Program-made: the position numbers and the translations under genes
Shown here: positions 20,540 to 29,331 of the stretch, in pieces
Numbering within the stretch: position 1 is the first letter of the stretch
How the letters are laid out: every line of letters begins with the position of its first letter
From: Thermococcus piezophilus
GTDB taxonomy: Archaea; Methanobacteriota_B; Thermococci; Thermococcales; Thermococcaceae
DNA length: 64,000 bases
Assembly: GCF_001647085.1 (NCBI RefSeq)
Contig: NZ_CP015520.1
Span: 1,508,219-1,572,218 of the forward strand
Direction of reading: 5' to 3'
Notes under the pieces: model-generated
The model's database searches: none
Seen by the model: the letters and a program-made list of their open reading frames with translations, nothing else
What the model was told of the DNA's origin: nothing

Positions 20540-20631
20540 GATTATCCCCACAAGTCTTGGGCTTTGAAGGATTTAAGCTTTCCGCGGCCAAGGTTTATAA
20601 CCTCCCGCGAGAATTATCTGCAGGTGAGAAA

Positions 20632-21237
20632 ATGAAGAGGATTGCTTTACTGCTGCTTTTCCTCCTGACGGTTTCGACGCTCTCCTACGCAGCGGCTGAA
20701 ACCCAGATAGACCCAAACAAAATTCACTTCTACATGTATGGCATGGCCACATGTCCCCATTGCCAGAATATGAAAAAGCTCATCCCGGAAATCTATGGCC
20801 CCGAAAGTCTGACCTATTACGAGCTGGTGAACAACGAGGAGAATCAGAAGCTTTTCGGTGAACAGTACAAATACACCGGCATTATGGGGGTTCCAGCAAT
20901 AGGTGTAGCGTACGACGGGAAGCTCTACGCCATTATAGAGGGTGAGTTCAACGTTTCGGCAACGCCCAAGATAATCGAGGCTGCCATGCAGGAAGGAGGT
21001 CTCATACTGGTTGTTGGGGGACAGGCATACCTGATAAAAAACCAGACCGTCATTGAGGAACTTCAGGCGATCTACGTTGAGCACAGGCTTCCAGGGGCCG
21101 AATCCACTGAAGCGTCCAGCACTACCGCAGCTACAGATACCTATGGACAAGAGTCAGGGGATGATGGCAAGACCTGCGGCCCGGGAATAGTCGTGGTACT
21201 TGTTCTCCTGCCCCTCCTCGCCTTGAGAAGGCGCTAA
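20632..21237 (+). CDS. Secreted thioredoxin-fold protein with CGP-CTERM anchor
   Basis: A 201-residue exported protein. ATG 20632 follows CAGGTGAGAA and gives the signal peptide MKRIALLLLFLLTVSTLSYA. A thioredoxin-like domain follows, with the redox motif CPHC in GMATCPHCQNMKKL and cis-Pro in GIMGVPAIGV. A Ser/Thr-rich stalk (STEASSTTAATD) leads to CGPGIVVVL plus a hydrophobic stretch and LRRR. This is the CGP-CTERM signal known from Thermococcaceae, thought to be processed and lipid-modified at Cys. It probably acts in disulfide exchange at the outer cell surface, with the CcdA gene next door as electron donor. Confidence 0.85.
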   Translation: MKRIALLLLFLLTVSTLSYAAAETQIDPNKIHFYMYGMATCPHCQNMKKLIPEIYGPESLTYYELVNNEENQKLFGEQYKYTGIMGVPAIGVAYDGKLYAIIEGEFNVSATPKIIEAAMQEGGLILVVGGQAYLIKNQTVIEELQAIYVEHRLPGAESTEASSTTAATDTYGQESGDDGKTCGPGIVVVLVLLPLLALRRR

Positions 21238-21300
21238 CCTTTTGTTCTCAACTTTTTGTTTTAGAAAGCAACAAAAAAGTTTATGGCGGAAGTGGCTACC

Positions 21301-22029
21301 ATGAGGAGTGAAGTCAAGGCACTGGCTATCATCCTCATGGCTTCCTTTGGAATAAGCTCCTTGGCGCTCTGGGCACTCGATTTGACTCACTTCATCCCGC
21401 AGTTCTTCACACTTGCAATGAGCGACTCCATAAACCCGTGCACCTTCGTCATCTACACCATGCTCCTCATAGCACTCTCCGTTAGAGAGATTTCACGGAG
21501 GAGGCTCTATATCATTGGGGCCTCATTCATAGCGGCCGTCTATATCTCGTACTATCTCCTGGGCGTTGGCCTGCTCTACTTCGCTGGCTGCCTGCCCCTT
21601 TGGGTCGCGGGCGTTGCCGCGATAATATTCGGCTTGTATACCATCGTTACAGGATTGATGGAGAAGTCAAGGGTCTTTGGGAAGAGTGACCTGAGGAAAA
21701 AGATATTCAGGAGCGACGCGACGCTCCTTGGAGCTTTCACCCTTGGCATCATAGTCTCGACGACTCTCCTTCCCTGCTCTGCCGGCAGCTATCTCGTCTA
21801 CGCGATAATAATATCAAAGAGCGGAAAAACGCTTGCCTTTCTTCTGCTCGCCCTGTACAACCTCGTCTTTGTCCTGCCACTGGTAGTCATCCTCCTTGCC
21901 ATGGGTAGTGTAACGGAGAGCAAGCACTTCTCCCAGGCGATGGTGAGGCACAGCAGGGAGCTGTCCGTGATAGCGGGGATATTGCTCATAGCGATAGGGA
22001 TCTGGGTTCTCACGGGGGCCTCACTGTAG
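21301..22029 (+). CDS. CcdA/DsbD-like transmembrane thiol electron transporter
   Basis: A 242-residue protein with six or seven membrane segments. Two conserved Cys lie in SDSINPCTFVIY and TTLLPCSAGSYL, the paired Cys of CcdA/DsbD that pass electrons across the membrane. ATG 21301 or an in-frame ATG at 21283 can be the start. It lies 60 bases after the CGP-CTERM thioredoxin-fold gene and is convergent with a CPYC thioredoxin gene, overlapping it by nine bases. A relay from cytoplasmic thioredoxin through CcdA to the surface protein is inferred. Confidence 0.85.
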   Translation: MRSEVKALAIILMASFGISSLALWALDLTHFIPQFFTLAMSDSINPCTFVIYTMLLIALSVREISRRRLYIIGASFIAAVYISYYLLGVGLLYFAGCLPLWVAGVAAIIFGLYTIVTGLMEKSRVFGKSDLRKKIFRSDATLLGAFTLGIIVSTTLLPCSAGSYLVYAIIISKSGKTLAFLLLALYNLVFVLPLVVILLAMGSVTESKHFSQAMVRHSRELSVIAGILLIAIGIWVLTGASL

Positions 22030-22371
22030 GCCTAACAGCGCTCTTACTTTTCTCTCGAACTCCCCAAAGTTTGGCACGCCTATAAACTCCACTCTGTTGT
22101 TTATCAGTATGGTGGGAGTTCCGAGGATGTTGTGCTCCATAGCCTTTCTCTGTCCCTCTGGCGTTGCGACGCTTAGCTCTTTAGCTACCACACCCTCGTA
22201 CTTCCTCTCTAGCTCCTTTGCCATCTGGACTGCTATGGGACAGTAGGGACAGCCTGGGGCGGTGATGACCTCAATGAGGACTTTAGGTCTCTTTGGCTTG
22301 ACCTCTATCATCCCAGCCCTCTTCATCAGCTCAAGCATCTTTTTTCTCCTAATTATCTCCAGCTCGTTCAT
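22021..22371 (-). CDS. Thioredoxin/glutaredoxin-like protein (CPYC)
   Basis: A 116-residue protein with a charged N-terminal extension and a thioredoxin fold: VITAPGCPYCPIAVQMAKEL contains the CxxC, and NILGTPTILINN carries the cis-Pro. There is no signal peptide, so it is cytoplasmic. GGGGGTGAG precedes ATG 22371. It lies beside the CcdA gene and probably belongs to the same thiol-redox system, although it is on the other strand. Confidence 0.85.
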   Translation of the reverse strand: MNELEIIRRKKMLELMKRAGMIEVKPKRPKVLIEVITAPGCPYCPIAVQMAKELERKYEGVVAKELSVATPEGQRKAMEHNILGTPTILINNRVEFIGVPNFGEFERKVRALLGLQ

Positions 22372-22431
22372 GGCTCACCCCCAATAGAAGAGAAAAAACG
22401 GAGGCTTAAAAAGAAATTCTTGAAAAAAGCT

Positions 22432-23004
22432 TCAATCAACGGCGTTGAGGTGAATGATGAGCAGTATCGCGAATATTATCGCCAGTGCAATGTGCACCTT
22501 CTTCCAGTGCCCCAGTATCCTAACGAACTTCTTGGCCATGGTGCTGTCGTGCTTCTTTGCGGCTAGGGTTACTTTGCCGTGAATGTAGCGTCCAGCAAAG
22601 CCACTGACGTTCAGCAGAACCAGTGTTATGGCCATGCTGAGACCGGTTCCTCCAGCGAGGCCTGAGTAATTATCGCACGAGAAGAAGTGAACGAACACCA
22701 AAAGGGTACCTGTTATCGTGAGGACATGGTGGATGGTGAGGGGATGAACCGGCCCAAACACCGTCACGTAGGGCTGTTCAGGCTTTATCTCGAAGCCCCA
22801 CTCGCTCGATTTCTTGTGGATTATTAGAAGCTTTCTTTTGGTGAGCGAGTAATAGATCACTCCCACTGCTATCATGGCAACTCCAGCCACTGCAAAGGCC
22901 GTGTAGCCAGCCTCGTATTCGTCTTCTTCTCCCGCGTATTCGTCAGCGAGAACGAGTGGAGCCAAAAGAAGAATTAAAAGAACCAAAGCGAGGGCCCGTT
23001 TCAT
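22432..23004 (-). CDS. Multi-histidine membrane protein (cytochrome b561-like topology)
   Basis: A 190-residue protein with a signal-peptide-like first helix, an acidic loop (DEYAGEEDEYEAGY) and about four further membrane segments. His residues occur within or at the ends of the helices: PLTIHHVLTITG, FVHFFSCDN, GRYIHGKV, HWKKVHIALAIIF and LIIHLNAVD. Such spacing is typical of di-heme cytochrome b or ferric-reductase-type proteins. Thermococcales are generally regarded as lacking cytochromes, so a metal or quinone-like role is also possible. ATG 23004 follows GAGGTGAAGC. Confidence 0.6.
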   Translation of the reverse strand: MKRALALVLLILLLAPLVLADEYAGEEDEYEAGYTAFAVAGVAMIAVGVIYYSLTKRKLLIIHKKSSEWGFEIKPEQPYVTVFGPVHPLTIHHVLTITGTLLVFVHFFSCDNYSGLAGGTGLSMAITLVLLNVSGFAGRYIHGKVTLAAKKHDSTMAKKFVRILGHWKKVHIALAIIFAILLIIHLNAVD

Positions 23005-23015
23005 CAAGCTTCACC

Positions 23016-23831
23016 TCAGAAGGCTCCGCTTCCTAGCCCACATATCTTCGCGAAGGGACAGACGGCACAGTCCTCTGTGTACGGCTTGAGGTAGGGCTCA
23101 CCCTTTACAGCCTTCGTTATCTCCTTGGCCTTTTCCATGGCGTCGTCCTCTCCTTCAAGAACGAGCGTTACACTTCCCTCGGCCCCACCGGCGCCTCCTG
23201 CAGCTATTGGTATCGCTTCAACGTCGGAGAGTATCCTGTAGACTTCAACCTCCGTCACAGGGTGAGCATGGGGGATTGGAACGAGAGCCGCGTAGAGGCC
23301 CGTACCCCAGTCGAAGGAATATATACCAGTGAGCTTGGCGCTCTCCTCCACGGGCGTGGGAACGAACTTCTCCAGGCTTATGGGCGTTATCGTAAAGACC
23401 CCCTTGGCTATCGTCCAGCCGAAGGTCTTGCCTATCGTTCCTCCGTCTGGGGCGGCGGCAAAGACGGCCACGTTCCAGTTTACGTCTATCGCGTTTCCGC
23501 CCTTGATGAAGACGTCCTTCGGTCCCATCTCTCTCAGGGCTTCTATCGGCTCGCCCTCAAAGGGCTTCCCCTTGTATAGGACGAGGTGCTTCGGCCAGGT
23601 ATCCTTGGGGGTAACGCACGTTCTGCCTTTGCTTATTACTCCAACGGTCCACTTCTCCTTTTCGATTTTCTCCCCGAGGAGCTCCTCGGCTATGTAGGCT
23701 GCGGTCGTTCCAGTCGCGATGTAGACAAAGCCGTGCTTAAGGGCGTGCTGGACCTCTTCCATGGCCACTACCGCTTTGGCTATCAACCTCTTGCTCTCGG
23801 GGGGAGTAAGGGTTACAAGTGCCCTTTTCAT
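23016..23831 (-). CDS. Conserved protein with C-terminal Cys cluster, function unknown
   Basis: A 271-residue protein; ATG 23831 follows GGTGATTCTC. Glycine-rich segments (GFVYIATGTTAAYIAEELLG; FIKGGNAIDVN; PIAAGGAGGAEGSVTLVLEG) suggest an alpha/beta nucleotide- or substrate-binding fold. The C-terminus has CAVCPFAKIC (CxxCxxxxxC), which may bind Fe-S or zinc. I do not recognise the family. It lies 11 bases upstream of the multi-His membrane gene in the same direction, so the two may be co-transcribed. Confidence 0.7.
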   Translation of the reverse strand: MKRALVTLTPPESKRLIAKAVVAMEEVQHALKHGFVYIATGTTAAYIAEELLGEKIEKEKWTVGVISKGRTCVTPKDTWPKHLVLYKGKPFEGEPIEALREMGPKDVFIKGGNAIDVNWNVAVFAAAPDGGTIGKTFGWTIAKGVFTITPISLEKFVPTPVEESAKLTGIYSFDWGTGLYAALVPIPHAHPVTEVEVYRILSDVEAIPIAAGGAGGAEGSVTLVLEGEDDAMEKAKEITKAVKGEPYLKPYTEDCAVCPFAKICGLGSGAF

Positions 23832-24289: not shown

Positions 24290-24653
24290 GTAACCTTATA
24301 TGACGCACGGAATATTTAAGACTTTTGGTCGAACTTTGGCCAAGCTTCAGGTTGAATTAAATGAACATTTTCTTTGTTATGACTCGTGGTTTTCTGGAAA
24401 TTACAGTGTAATGATACGTATCATATACACCTTGAGAGAATGGGAAAGTTGAAAACATTCAATTCAAAAATTAGAACATAATATAACAGTTAATGAGACT
24501 GTATGTCTCAAATATTTTCTTTTCGGCTATGTAAATGTGGTCGTTTATGTTAAGAAACCACAAACTTTTTATGAAGGTATCTTCATCTATAGCTCGAGGT
24601 ATATGACACGTGTCATAGAGGGAATCGTGATGAAGTTGCCTGGAGGTGTTGGG
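24290..24653. promoter_or_regulatory. Divergent regulatory region with palindromic operators (HTH gene / hcp)
   Basis: A 364-bp AT-rich intergenic region. It holds perfect palindromes ATGATACGTATCAT (24411-24424) and TATGACACGTGTCATA (24602-24617), an inverted repeat TGAGAC-N5-GTCTCA (24494-24510), and the half-site TATGAC at 24299. A TATA-like ACTTTTTAT (about 24565-24572) lies about 30 bases before the second palindrome, which would place that palindrome near the hcp transcription start. No gene is seen in this stretch. Confidence 0.65.
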
Positions 24654-25994
24654 ATGCTCTGCAACCAGTGTTCGATGAGCCTGAGTGGTGGCTGTACCGT
24701 TAGGGGCGTGTGCGGAAAAGACCCGGACTTGAACTCCCTTCAGGAAGCGCTGCTCTATGGAATAAAGGGCACCGCCGCCTACTACTACCATGCGCTCGAG
24801 GTTGGCTATGACAATCCAGAGATTGGCCACTTCCTTGCCGAGGCCCTATACTCTACCCTGACTAACGTCAACTTCGACAAAAACCGCTTCCTTGGGCTCA
24901 TCCTTGAGAACGGAAGAATCCATCTCGAGGCCATGAAGCTTCTGGATAGGGCGTATGTTGAGACCTTCGGAAGGCCGGAGCCCGTGAAAGTGCCCACTGG
25001 CACCGAGGAAGGTCACGGCATCCTCGTCACGGGTCACAGCTATAAGGCGTTGTACGAGCTTCTCAAGCAGATTGAAGAGATGGGACTCGATGATGACATC
25101 AGGGTCTACACCCACGCAGAAATGTTCCCCGCCCACGCCTATCCCAAACTGAGGAAGTTCAAATCGCTCTACGGCAACTGGGGCGGGAGCTGGCTGTACC
25201 AGAGAAAGGAGTTTGCAGAATTCCCCGGTGTTATACTAGGAACGAGCAACTGCGTCCAGCAGCCGACAAAGGCCTACGCGGACAGAATATTCACAGTTGG
25301 AATAGCTGGCCTTGAGGGAGTCCCACACATTAGGGACTACGACTTCGAGCCTTTGATAAAGAGGGCTCTGGAAACCCCGAGGATGGAAAAAATTGAGGGG
25401 GGACAGCTTCTCACGGGCTTCCATCACACCAATGTGCTGGCCATGAAAGATAAGCTCATAGAGCTCATCCAAGAGGGCAAGATACGGCACATCTTCGTCG
25501 TCGGTGGCTGTGATACGCCCCACAAGGGCATGGGCTACTACGAGAGGCTCACAGAGCTCATTCCTGACGATGCCATAATACTCTCGGCCGCCTGTGGAAA
25601 GTTCCGCTACAACGCGAGGGACTACGGGACGATCGAGGGCATTCCAAGGTTCCTGGACTTCGGCCAGTGCAACAACGTCTACTCGATAATAGAGATAGCA
25701 CTAGCTCTGGCAAGCGAGCTCGGAACCGACGTTAACTCACTCCCCGTCAGCATAGTACTGTCGTGGATGGAGCAGAAGGCCATCGGCATACTTTACACCC
25801 TTCTGTACTTGGGAGTGAAGGGTATTTACATAGGTCCAAAAGCGCCAGAATTCCTAACGCCAAACGTTTTCGAAATCCTAAGGAAGCAGTTTGACCTTAG
25901 ATTAACTGGTGACCCAGAGAAGGATCTGAAAGACATGCTCAGCAAGGGAATAAGGGTGGAAGATTGGGCCATCTCAGTGGAGGAGGTGGATTAA
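24654..25994 (+). CDS. hcp: Hybrid cluster protein (Hcp, hydroxylamine/NO reductase family)
   Basis: A 446-residue protein. ATG 24654 is chosen because GGAGGTG (24642-24648) precedes it and the product then begins MLCNQCSMS. N-terminal Cys3, Cys6, Cys14 and Cys20 ligate the first Fe-S cluster. Hybrid-cluster residues lie in GHSYKAL, HAEMFPAHAYPKL, GTSNCVQQP, VGGCDTPHKG, SAACGKFRYN and LDFGQCNN. Hcp reduces hydroxylamine and NO and supports nitrosative or oxidative stress defence in anaerobes. The lack of the helical insert makes it the short archaeal type. The promoter has a perfect palindrome shared with the genes downstream. Confidence 0.93.
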   Translation: MLCNQCSMSLSGGCTVRGVCGKDPDLNSLQEALLYGIKGTAAYYYHALEVGYDNPEIGHFLAEALYSTLTNVNFDKNRFLGLILENGRIHLEAMKLLDRAYVETFGRPEPVKVPTGTEEGHGILVTGHSYKALYELLKQIEEMGLDDDIRVYTHAEMFPAHAYPKLRKFKSLYGNWGGSWLYQRKEFAEFPGVILGTSNCVQQPTKAYADRIFTVGIAGLEGVPHIRDYDFEPLIKRALETPRMEKIEGGQLLTGFHHTNVLAMKDKLIELIQEGKIRHIFVVGGCDTPHKGMGYYERLTELIPDDAIILSAACGKFRYNARDYGTIEGIPRFLDFGQCNNVYSIIEIALALASELGTDVNSLPVSIVLSWMEQKAIGILYTLLYLGVKGIYIGPKAPEFLTPNVFEILRKQFDLRLTGDPEKDLKDMLSKGIRVEDWAISVEEVD

Positions 25995-26468
25995 TTCCTC
26001 GCCTCCAGTTTTTCAATTCTTCTATCATGGCCTTGAACTTCTCGTCGCTCATACCGAGAAGCTTTTTGGCCTGCCTAAGGGCCACTGTTCTGACCAGGTT
26101 TTCCTCATCACAGGGTTATGGGGCGGAGAGAAGCCATACTTGACGAGTATCTCAAGGGACTGAGGATAGGCCTTGAGAAGCTTGGCCACGTTGGTGTCTT
26201 CTGTTATCTCATCCAGCCTATCGTCGCACTCTTTAACTTTCATCTTAAATTCCTTCGAGCTTTCGGTCTTCGTAACTTTGAGGACGAAGAAACCGCCGAC
26301 TTCCCTAACTTCAATGTCATATCCTGCCTCCTCCAACTTAGGAATCAAGTCAACGAAAGGTCTGCCGCCTATAACCTCAAGTGTATCCCCGACCTTGAGC
26401 TTCCCGAGGCTCTCGAGGATCATAACAGCTGGTTGGGGAGGTTTCAAGCCCCTAACATCAAGCATCAT
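25940..26468 (-). pseudogene. DUF2249 + DUF1858 protein gene with frameshift
   Basis: ATG 26468 (after GGTGAGCG) starts MMLDVRGLKPPQPAVMILES, a SirA/TusA-like DUF2249 domain (to about residue 55). A DUF1858 domain begins at about residue 88 (ITEDTNVAKLLKAYPQSLEI, VKYGFSPPHNPVMRK). The native frame stops at 26049 after an atypical tail. Shifting one base at the AAAA run near 26099 restores the normal DUF1858 end (LVRTVALRQAKKLLGMSDEK), read on into the hcp 3' end (stop about 25940). This looks like a single-base deletion, either real or an error. Such proteins accompany hemerythrin/DUF438 proteins and may handle NO- or sulfur-linked chemistry. Confidence 0.7.
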
Positions 26469-26488
26469 TTTCGCTCACCGTTCGAATG

Positions 26489-26504
26489 TATGACACGCGG
26501 CATA
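26489..26504 (-). promoter_or_regulatory. Palindromic operator upstream of DUF2249/DUF1858 gene
   Basis: TATGACACGCGGCATA differs at two positions from the perfect hcp palindrome TATGACACGTGTCATA. It lies 21 bases upstream of the DUF2249 start, close to the expected transcription start. It was found by comparing the three promoters of this gene group by eye. Confidence 0.55.
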
Positions 26505-26575
26505 TAATCTTTACTGGTCAGGATTGTTTAGTTTTCTATGTTCAGATATGTCCAGAAATACTTATAAGCGCCATC

Positions 26576-26591
26576 TATGACATATGTCATG
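26576..26591 (+). promoter_or_regulatory. Palindromic operator at DUF438 gene
   Basis: The perfect palindrome ATGACATATGTCAT (26577-26590) follows a TATA-like ACTTATAAG (26560-26568) by about eight bases and precedes ATG 26604. It resembles the hcp operator except for the central two bases (TA instead of CG). Its position overlapping the likely transcription start suggests repression. Confidence 0.6.
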
Positions 26592-26603: not shown

Positions 26604-27938
26604 ATGACCGAGTTACTGAACAACAGGGAGTATAAGAAGGAGCAGCTCAAGAATCTGCTCAAAAAGATACACGAGGGAGAAGAGGTAAACAAGCTGAAGA
26701 CTGAGTTTAAGGCAGTCTTAAGTAGCATCTCCCCCCTTGAAATCCCGCTCATCGAGCAGGAGCTGGTGAAGGAAGGCATCTCCGCTAAGGAGATAGCCAA
26801 GATGTGCGACATCCATGTCGAGCTCTTCCGCGAGGCAGTTTCGGGTACTGACGAGCTCGAAGAGAAGGATCTTCCAGAGGGACATCCGCTCAGGACTCTC
26901 TACGAGGAGAACCATGAGATAATGAAGGACGCCGAAATGCTTAATCTTTACGCCTCGACACTGGTCAACACCAAGGACGATCTCATGAGGAAAGAAATCC
27001 TCGGCGTTCTTGAGGAGATAGTGGGCAACCTCAGGAAGGTCGGCTTCACCCACTACAACCGCGAAGAGATGCTCATTTTCCCATACATCGAGCGCCGCGG
27101 CCTGACGGCAATAGCAACCGTCCTCTGGATGAAGCATGACGAGATAAGGTTCATGATAAAGCACCTCACCGAGCTTTTAAGGAAGAGGGAGGAGATGCCC
27201 TGGGAAGAGTTCGTCACGAAGTTCAAGGAAAAGGCAAACGAGGCGGCTTTTGCCCTAACTGACATGGTCTTCAGGGAAAACAACATATTCTATCCCACCG
27301 TTAAGGCCCTGCTGAGCGAGGGTGAGTGGAAGGCTATAAGATTTCAGGAAGACGAGTTTGGCTACTACAAAGTCCAGCCAAAGGAGTGGAACCCCGACGT
27401 TGAGCCCCTTCACCCCTGGCAGATTGACCCGACGCTGAATGCAGAGCAGCTCCTCGGCCTTCCAAAGGAGGTTCAGCAGGCCCTTAAGGGACAGCCGCTG
27501 GAGTTTGACAAAGCTGAGCTCAAACGTGAGGACGACATAGACCTTGGAACCGGCTACGTTAACGTCGAGGAACTCAAGGCAATATTCGAGGCCCTTCCGG
27601 TTGATGTGACCTTTATAGACAAGGACGACCGCGTGAGGTTCTTTTCGCCAGGCGAGAGGATATTCACGCGCTCGTTGAGCGTCCTTGGAAGGCCCGTCCA
27701 TCTCTGCCATCCACCTAAGAGCGTCCACATAGTGAACAAAATCCTCGAGGCCTTCAAAGAGGGCAGGGAGAAAGAGTCCACCTTCTGGATACGCATGGGG
27801 CCGAAGTACGTTTACATCAAATACGTGCCGCTCTTCGATGATAACGGTGAATACCTCGGGACCCTTGAGATTACGATGGACATCGCCCCGTATAAGAAAA
27901 TTGAAGGCGAAAAGAGGCTTCTCGACTGGAGGAATTGA
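26604..27938 (+). CDS. DUF438-hemerythrin-PAS protein
   Basis: A 444-residue cytoplasmic protein. Residues of about 1-75 are DUF438 (REYKKEQLKNLLKKIHEGEE). About 85-225 is a hemerythrin-like HHE domain with His in LYEENHEIMKD, FTHYNREEMLIFP and WMKHDEIRFMIKHL, which may bind a di-iron site. The C-terminal PAS domain (about 325-440) has VDVTFIDKDDRVRFFSPGER and IKYVPLFDDNGEYLGT. It probably senses or scavenges NO or O2. ATG 26604 follows AAGGTGACTAAG and is preferred over upstream in-frame ATGs that lie inside the palindrome. It is first in an operon with a cupin and an M24-like gene. Confidence 0.88.
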   Translation: MTELLNNREYKKEQLKNLLKKIHEGEEVNKLKTEFKAVLSSISPLEIPLIEQELVKEGISAKEIAKMCDIHVELFREAVSGTDELEEKDLPEGHPLRTLYEENHEIMKDAEMLNLYASTLVNTKDDLMRKEILGVLEEIVGNLRKVGFTHYNREEMLIFPYIERRGLTAIATVLWMKHDEIRFMIKHLTELLRKREEMPWEEFVTKFKEKANEAAFALTDMVFRENNIFYPTVKALLSEGEWKAIRFQEDEFGYYKVQPKEWNPDVEPLHPWQIDPTLNAEQLLGLPKEVQQALKGQPLEFDKAELKREDDIDLGTGYVNVEELKAIFEALPVDVTFIDKDDRVRFFSPGERIFTRSLSVLGRPVHLCHPPKSVHIVNKILEAFKEGREKESTFWIRMGPKYVYIKYVPLFDDNGEYLGTLEITMDIAPYKKIEGEKRLLDWRN

Positions 27939-27939
27939 G

Positions 27940-28251
27940 ATGATTGTTGTTAACGTCGAAAACGCCGAAGGGGTCGAAAACCCTCACGGAGTGGACGTTA
28001 GAAAGCTCCTCGCGATGGAGAAAGTCAGCGTGCTCCACGTGAGCCTAAAACCCGGTGAAGAGCTCAAGAAGCACTCCACTTCAGTGGATGCCTTTCTCTA
28101 CGTGCTCAAGGGAAGGGGTGTGGTAGAAGTCGGTGAGGAGAGAGCAGAGGTTAAGAAGGGATACCTCGTATACTTACCTAAGAACATCCCCCACAGCGTC
28201 TCGAACGCTGGAAGCATGGAGATGTCCTTTCTCGTCGTTAAGGTGGTGTGA
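27940..28251 (+). CDS. Cupin-domain protein
   Basis: A 103-residue single cupin. Motif 1 is HVSLKPGEELKKHSTSVDAFLY with one clear His (the second usual His is replaced by Ser/Val context), and motif 2 is YLPKNIPHSVSNAG with His. Metal binding is therefore possible but reduced. ATG 27940 follows GGAGGAATTGAG and lies one base after the DUF438 stop. It probably acts with its operon partners in stress metabolism; the substrate is unknown. Confidence 0.8.
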   Translation: MIVVNVENAEGVENPHGVDVRKLLAMEKVSVLHVSLKPGEELKKHSTSVDAFLYVLKGRGVVEVGEERAEVKKGYLVYLPKNIPHSVSNAGSMEMSFLVVKVV

Positions 28252-28254
28252 AAA

Positions 28255-29331
28255 ATGAGGGGAAATCCCGAGATATTTCGGAAAAGGGTCGAGCGCTTCC
28301 AGGAGCTTTTAAGGGATAATGAGATAGACGGGGCAGTCATCAGAACTCTGTCGAGCTTTATCTACTTCACCGGCACCAAGTGGCTCCGTCCAAGCATCCT
28401 TATTCCGGCCGAAGGGGAACCGATCGTTTACGTCGTCAAGGGCGAGGCCGAGGAGTTCAAGCGGAGGAGCTGGATTGAGAATGTCGTCGAGTTCCGGAAG
28501 GTCGAGGACTTGATGGCCGGTGTGGTGAGCTGGATACACGGTAATGGCATGGAGCGTGTCGGTTTAGAGTTCGGCGTAGAGAGGGACGCCTACTTAATCT
28601 TCCTCAAGATATTCCAGCGGCTGAATCCAACGGTTGAGATAGTGGATATCCTTGATCTCACGATGGGCCTCAGGATTATAAAGGATGAATGGGAGCTCGA
28701 CAATATCAGGAAAGCTGGAAAGATAGCCCAGAAGGGTATGAAGGTTTCAGAGGATGTTATAAAGCCTGGCATGAGCGAGCTCGAGATAGCGGCCGAGGTT
28801 ATGCGCGAGCTCATGCTCAACGGCAGTGAAGATCCCAAGGTTTATGTCTCAACAACACCAAGGGCCCACGCAGAGCCCTTCAGGGACTTGAAAGTAAAGG
28901 AGAACGGTGTCGTTACGGTCGTCATAGGGGCAGACTGGAACCATTATTATGCGAACATGGCGAGGACTTTCGTGGTCGGCGATCCCGGTGAGAGTGTCAG
29001 AAAAGCCATTGAGGTCAAGGAAGAGGCTTACAGACTTGCGCTGGAGGAAACCAGAATCGGCGTTCCCCTTTCGGCAGTGGAGAAGAAGCTTACGAATTTC
29101 TTCAAGGAGAGGGGCTTTGGTGATGCCTACATAGCTGGCTACACCCACGGAGTCGGTCTGTTAATCGAGGAACCGCCGATAACGACCATCGTCGTTCCAC
29201 AGAGGGCCGCGAAGGTACAAGAGAATATGGTTCTCACAATAATCCACCCGCCGCTCATGATTACCGAAGGGGCCATAAAGAAGGAGGACACCTACATCGT
29301 AAAGGAAAACGGCATTGAGAGGGTCACCTAA
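28255..29331 (+). CDS. M24-fold (Xaa-Pro peptidase/creatinase-like) protein lacking metal ligands
   Basis: A 358-residue protein with a creatinase N-terminal domain (about 10-130) and a pita-bread M24 domain (about 140-358). The M24 metal ligands of prolidases are D, D, H, E, E. In the aligned stretches VVIGADWNHYYANMARTF and LTIIHPPLMITEG, both Asp (now Val and Asn) and one Glu (now His) appear replaced. The His of YTHGVGLLIEEPP and the late Glu of KKEDTYIV remain. It is therefore probably not a metallopeptidase. Creatinase, the metal-free relative, suggests a C-N hydrolase role. It is the third gene of the DUF438 operon, three bases after the cupin stop. Confidence 0.8.
   Translation: MRGNPEIFRKRVERFQELLRDNEIDGAVIRTLSSFIYFTGTKWLRPSILIPAEGEPIVYVVKGEAEEFKRRSWIENVVEFRKVEDLMAGVVSWIHGNGMERVGLEFGVERDAYLIFLKIFQRLNPTVEIVDILDLTMGLRIIKDEWELDNIRKAGKIAQKGMKVSEDVIKPGMSELEIAAEVMRELMLNGSEDPKVYVSTTPRAHAEPFRDLKVKENGVVTVVIGADWNHYYANMARTFVVGDPGESVRKAIEVKEEAYRLALEETRIGVPLSAVEKKLTNFFKERGFGDAYIAGYTHGVGLLIEEPPITTIVVPQRAAKVQENMVLTIIHPPLMITEGAIKKEDTYIVKENGIERVT

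Follow-up and report, generated by a model that had tools for sequence, protein, structure and literature searches.

The window analysed here is a stretch of 64,000 nucleotides of Thermococcus piezophilus (contig NZ_CP015520.1, positions 1,508,219 to 1,572,218), and its host genome (G000) has 1.93 Mb. The locus contains genes for a small helix-turn-helix (HTH) regulator, the hybrid cluster protein Hcp, a DUF2249/DUF1858 protein, and a DUF438 protein with hemerythrin and PAS domains. Their coordinates, and those of the promoter features, are listed in Table 1. Hcp has been linked to NO (PMC1274295, PMC10210160), and YtfE-type diiron proteins to O2/NO handling (PMC9052748). The likely DUF438 start lies behind a GGTGA, and the ATG within the adjacent palindrome is upstream of that start. 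The cupin and peptidase genes after DUF438 are probably the tail of its operon, if their order is taken to reflect co-transcription. The DUF2249/DUF1858 gene is out of frame at 26049-26110 (minus strand), and encodes 139 aa vs 158-159 aa in close relatives; the genome G063 has a different break in this gene. On the other side of the regulator, the region 20557-23831 encodes a group of proteins, some thioredoxin/glutaredoxin-like and others with no Pfam match. This redox context is partly kept in relatives.

Table 1. Genes and putative regulatory features of the locus (positions in the window).
Feature	Position	Strand	Basis or remark
HTH regulator, 128 aa	23903..24289	-	HTH_3/HTH_5 over Pfam cut-off; invariant C-x2-H-x11-C-x2-C near C-terminus
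Regulator's own candidate operator TATTCCGTGCGTCATA (left half degenerate)	24299..24314	-	joined to TATA box 24312-24319
Auxiliary palindrome AATGATACGTATCATA	24410..24425	+	between regulator gene and hcp; core ATGATACGTATCAT 24411-24424
Likely hcp TATA box TTTTTATG	24566..24573	+	position conserved upstream of hcp; predicted from sequence
hcp candidate operator TATGACACGTGTCATA	24602..24617	+	perfect palindrome, 0 mismatches
hcp, hybrid cluster protein, 446 aa	24654..25994	+	TIGR01703 651 bits, PF03063
TusA/DUF2249 + DUF1858 protein	26049..26468	-	profile matches; C-terminus out of frame vs relatives
DUF2249 candidate operator TATGCCGCGTGTCATA	26489..26504	-	overlaps TATA box 26501-26508
Second element, two degenerate copies	26515-26530, 26539-26554	.	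window copies of TGGGCA-N4-TGCCCA
DUF438 TATA box CTTATAAG	26561..26568	+	fixed spacing to palindrome
DUF438 candidate operator TATGACATATGTCATG	26576..26591	+	over expected transcription start; perfect core ATGACATATGTCAT 26577-26590
DUF438 + hemerythrin + PAS protein	26604..27938	+	Pfam; start predicted from orthologues
Cupin, then M24-type peptidase	27940..29331	+	order kept in several relatives; cupin by Pfam match, peptidase name presumptive

The palindromes named in the initial annotation are all present in the window sequence at the positions it gave. The DUF2249 palindrome, read as TATGACACGCGGCATA, has 2 mismatches. A half-site had been proposed before the HTH gene; the TATGAC at 24299-24304 is indeed there, but it belongs to a conserved, degenerate full site (TATTCCRCGCGTCATA, minus strand). 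The window contains 5 sites with at most 3 mismatches vs a shuffle mean of 1.56, and 5/100 shuffles reach 5. Across the genome, the 16-mer with at most 2 mismatches occurs at 6 places vs 5 for a reversed control: three are the hcp, DUF2249, and DUF438 promoters, and three lie inside long open frames. The near-matches L003, L004, L090, L135, and L136 of the same genome, all within long open frames, were rejected as chance. Because the raw window count is weak by itself, the significance of the palindromes rests on their conservation and position.

A search of 37 genomes of the genus for the exact 14-mer ATGACANNTGTCAT gave 31 places in 23 of them (reversed control: one place). By coordinates, all 31 sit at hcp, at DUF438, or at a flavodiiron protein (FDP) gene inserted before DUF438. 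None was found in the 9 of these 37 genomes which lack the regulator. The exact site and the regulator thus co-occur (Fisher p = 1.6e-5, without correction for relatedness), and kinship of the genomes inflates counts of conserved sites. The regulator is full length in 44/61 genus genomes; some genomes retain it with one or two targets only. Promoters were scored over 160 bp upstream at a threshold of 11/14 or better. Sites were found at 27/27 hcp, 36/36 DUF2249, 37/41 DUF438, and 37/45 regulator promoters, vs 1/528 control promoters. At the four DUF438 promoters without a site, an FDP gene has been inserted and has the sites in front of it; G025 is arranged likewise. In many genomes, DUF2249 and the regulator form an apparent operon divergent from DUF438. 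The initial annotation had raised two doubts, that the motif might be common elsewhere and that orthologous promoters might lack it. On testing, the exact motif was not frequent outside the target promoters, and the orthologous promoters retain it.

The complete genome G018 has DUF438 and no regulator. At its DUF438 promoter, the TATA region CGTTTAAAAATG and the leader GTGAAGGTGATAAAA are still in place, and the palindrome has decayed to TTTAATGTGACTGTG. Three further loci contain decayed extra copies: a broken regulator (L082, G002), a regulator remnant beside hcp (L086, G021), and a fragmented hcp beside an intact regulator (L180, G096).

The palindrome at 24411 had also been described as related to the motif; in the nearest relatives its place is taken by operators that are exact or nearly so. 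G063 and G067 have TATGACACGTGTCATT as the counterpart, and G068 has TATGACACGCGTCATT. In many genomes the auxiliary palindrome between the regulator gene and hcp reads TATGACTTATGTCATA. The window's ATGATACGTATCAT differs from the relatives' ATGACACGTGTCAT at two symmetric positions, which is consistent with recognition by a dimer.

Both flavodiiron proteins and diiron proteins of the hemerythrin/YtfE type have links to O2/NO handling. The search for the motif before hcp and flavodiiron genes, as the initial annotation had proposed, was positive for hcp, and for flavodiiron genes only where they are placed beside the locus. Ordinary FDP promoters of the genus contain no site at 10/14 or better (0/25). 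At L084, L107, L110, and the loci of G025 and G083, an inserted FDP gene of a second type separates the operator from DUF438. The second-type FDPs are 68-76% identical to one another, and about 32% to the ordinary FDP. Three g11 genomes have neither hcp nor DUF438 at the locus; in 2/3 of these, TATATGACATGTGGCAAA is joined to the TATA box of the ordinary FDP gene beside the regulator, and the third has lost it. That FDP genes have apparently been recruited to these sites counts in favour of a regulator-operator model.

For a held-out test, a motif defined beforehand from the window's genus was scored in 20 genomes that belong to five further genera of the family (241,520 bases; 12/14 or better). 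Of the strong sites, 57/58 stand at regulator, hcp, DUF438, DUF2249, or FDP starts, and the remaining one (L185, 3703) is before a DUF438 whose start aligned poorly. The regulator and the sites are also paired in three Thermoproteota genomes (L125-L127, metagenome-assembled contigs). In L125 and L127, hcp and the regulator diverge around the palindrome; L126 has the regulator and DUF438, with a site at each. The regulator's own site is a fuller palindrome in L126, L124, and L122. G048, a genome from outside the family, has two sites; the one at L005 is accompanied by neither regulator nor target, and the exact motif there was taken as chance.

The sites had been placed near TATA boxes or transcription starts, and at all four promoters they overlap or lie downstream of the TATA box. 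The TATA box and the palindrome are joined in 36/36 DUF2249 promoters and in 42/45 upstream regions of the regulator gene. At DUF438, the distance from the TATA box to the palindrome centre is 19.5 bp in 32/33 promoters measured, and the site therefore covers the expected transcription start. At hcp, the distance is mostly 31 or 37-41 bp, just past the expected start. The hcp site is farther from its presumed TATA box than the sites at the other three promoters, which counts against the model. Archaeal sites overlapping or downstream of the TATA box are repressor positions. The overlap thus makes repression likely, including autorepression. A sigma-70/terminator scan was set aside, since it does not apply to archaea.

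Another conserved element, TGGGCA-N4-TGCCCA, lies between the divergent DUF2249 and DUF438 TATA boxes, with 20/28 exact genus copies. In the window's own clade these two promoters are farther apart, and each side has one degenerate copy. G018 retains a partial copy despite the loss of the regulator palindrome. The location between the TATA boxes and the partial copy in G018 point to a separate factor. The element is probably the site of this other factor, which is perhaps an activator. Many genomes also have a conserved stretch, GGTTAAGAAACCGCAA, upstream of the hcp TATA box (about 24549-24573 in the window), possibly a BRE or a site of another factor.

The HTH_3 (PF01381) match of the regulator scores 26.9 bits vs a gathering cut-off of 23, and the HTH_5 match is short (residues 17-51). 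Alignment of 38 orthologues showed an invariant TQ-AVSRYL in the HTH, and an invariant C-x2-H-x11-C-x2-C. The Thermoproteota orthologues keep the C, H, C, C set; a distant homologue has CxxC...CxxC. The predicted structure has a mean pLDDT of 84, with a confident helical core and a C-terminal part of low confidence. Fold comparison of this model with the PDB gave no match at E <= 0.001, and the sequence search against the PDB gave weak HTH matches only. From the invariant C-x2-H-x11-C-x2-C, the regulator is proposed to sense NO/O2 through a metal or Fe-S centre. The C-H-C-C set likely holds a metal or Fe-S centre, and NO/O2 may be the signal. No published description of the regulator was found in the literature searched.

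The bacterial hcp regulators HcpR, NsrR, NorR, and DNR belong to other families than the archaeal regulator. HcpR (CRP/FNR family) controls a regulon of anaerobic bacteria (PMC1274295), and its NO response is haem-dependent (PMC12750200). Its regulon is likewise small and hcp-centred, and the HcpR gene is often beside hcp. A palindromic operator with hcp as the core target is an HcpR-type feature found at every hcp promoter scored here (27/27); this likeness concerns function, not homology. One HcpR consensus, TTGACnnnnGTCAA, and the archaeal site have a GAC-N4-GTC core in common. However, the outer bases of the archaeal site are ATGAC, not TTGAC, the archaeal sites lie on or after the TATA box, and the archaeal protein is a small HTH regulator whose tail carries the Cys3His set. 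The cNMP-binding domain PF00027 has no match in the whole genome nor in the regulator (the positive control matches in 10/14 genomes), and HcpR was rejected as the binder; PF13545 gave several generic winged-helix matches, which were uninformative. The shared core is thus taken as convergence or coincidence, because the genome has no HcpR-type protein. NsrR and IscR are Rrf2 Fe-S repressors (PMC2577008, PMC1274295). The proposed NO-released repressor with a Cys-based metal centre resembles them, and in some bacteria hcp is among the NsrR targets. However, the NsrR motif gATGyAT-N5-ATrCATc is unlike the archaeal palindrome, and, for the Fe-S cluster of that family, the archaeal regulator offers its conserved C, H, C, C as candidate ligands. 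NsrR was rejected, as the Rrf2 domain PF02082 has no match over the cut-off in the genome and none in the regulator.

Among archaeal proteins, the thiamine regulator ThiR (HTH-ThiN; PF0601 in P. furiosus, PMC10746257) has a related N-terminal half. A paralogue in the same genome, with HTH_3 and ThiN, shares about 35% identity over regulator residues 3-111. The ThiN domain is present in this paralogue but absent from the 128-aa regulator; the C-H-C-C set is complete in the regulator and partly kept in the paralogue. The short HTH_5 match recalls the ArsR/SmtB metalloregulators, but the family model NF033788 gave 23 bits, below its cut-off of 55.

Since the palindrome at these stress-gene promoters travels with one small HTH protein, the two are very probably operator and repressor. 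The first suggestion, of a local regulon controlled by a Cys-containing HTH regulator encoded within it, gains support: the motif co-occurs with the regulator, is lost with it, and recurs in five other genera and another phylum. With a probability of roughly 0.7, the HTH protein is a dedicated, autoregulated local repressor of the hcp/DUF2249/DUF438 set, released by NO/O2 attack on a metal centre. It would bind TATGACA-NN-TGTCATA, probably as a dimer. The palindromes cover or follow the TATA boxes of the regulator gene, hcp, DUF2249-DUF1858, DUF438-hemerythrin-PAS, and, where one is inserted at the locus, a flavodiiron gene. In anoxic, unstressed cells, the bound regulator would block loading of TBP/TFB or RNA polymerase. 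NO, O2, or derived species might then attack the metal centre held by the invariant Cys-His-Cys-Cys; the regulator would leave the DNA, and the genes for detoxification and repair would be expressed. The candidate operators, the gene set, the linkage to the regulator, the TATA overlap, and the ligand conservation are supported by the sequences; from these we infer direct binding, repression, a metal or Fe-S centre, and the NO/O2 signal.

It is possible, though rather unlikely, that the regulator binds these sites and uses its Cys3His set to hold a structural zinc. The signal would then enter otherwise, possible routes being thiol chemistry and the PAS-hemerythrin protein DUF438. In favour of this, C-x2-H...C-x2-C is a spacing like that of zinc sites, Cys3His is replaced by four Cys in the distant homologue, and DUF438 is a typical partner with PAS and hemerythrin domains. 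However, a structural site alone leaves the link to the redox gene set unexplained. The g11 genus, whose locus has no DUF438 copy, has retained both the regulator and the regulator's own site, and DUF438 is therefore not a required partner everywhere. The regulator might also be an activator, whose binding to the palindrome switches the genes on under stress. The perfect, strongly conserved sites would suit this, as would the DUF438 TATA region, which has no A-rich BRE in many genomes. Activation is nevertheless improbable, since the site positions relative to the TATA box suggest blocking rather than recruiting, and a separate conserved element occupies the upstream activator position. Still less probable is another, unlinked regulator at the palindromes, with the adjacent HTH gene a mere member of the regulon; against it stand co-occurrence, adjacency, the site at the regulator's own promoter, and the fact that regulator and palindromes are conserved together in Thermoproteota despite little else being shared. 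Chance AT-rich repeats, a reading favoured by a raw window count only modestly above shuffles, are refuted by conservation at fixed positions across genus, family, and phyla and by the controls.

More broadly, and tentatively, the repressor may represent an archaeal class of Cys3His metal/Fe-S NO/O2-sensing HTH repressors. Such a class would be unrelated to HcpR/NsrR, control an equivalent gene set, and be common to Thermococcaceae and some Thermoproteota, with a second factor at TGGGCA-N4-TGCCCA. The control of hcp, hemerythrin-PAS, and flavodiiron genes in hyperthermophilic archaea is undescribed in the literature searched. The present analysis offers a concrete candidate regulator-operator pair, a regulon of four to five genes, and specific residues and bases to mutate in Thermococcus or Pyrococcus, which are genetically tractable. 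It suggests that there might be an archaeal counterpart of the bacterial HcpR/NsrR control, and would tie the DUF438 and DUF2249/DUF1858 proteins to NO/O2 defence.
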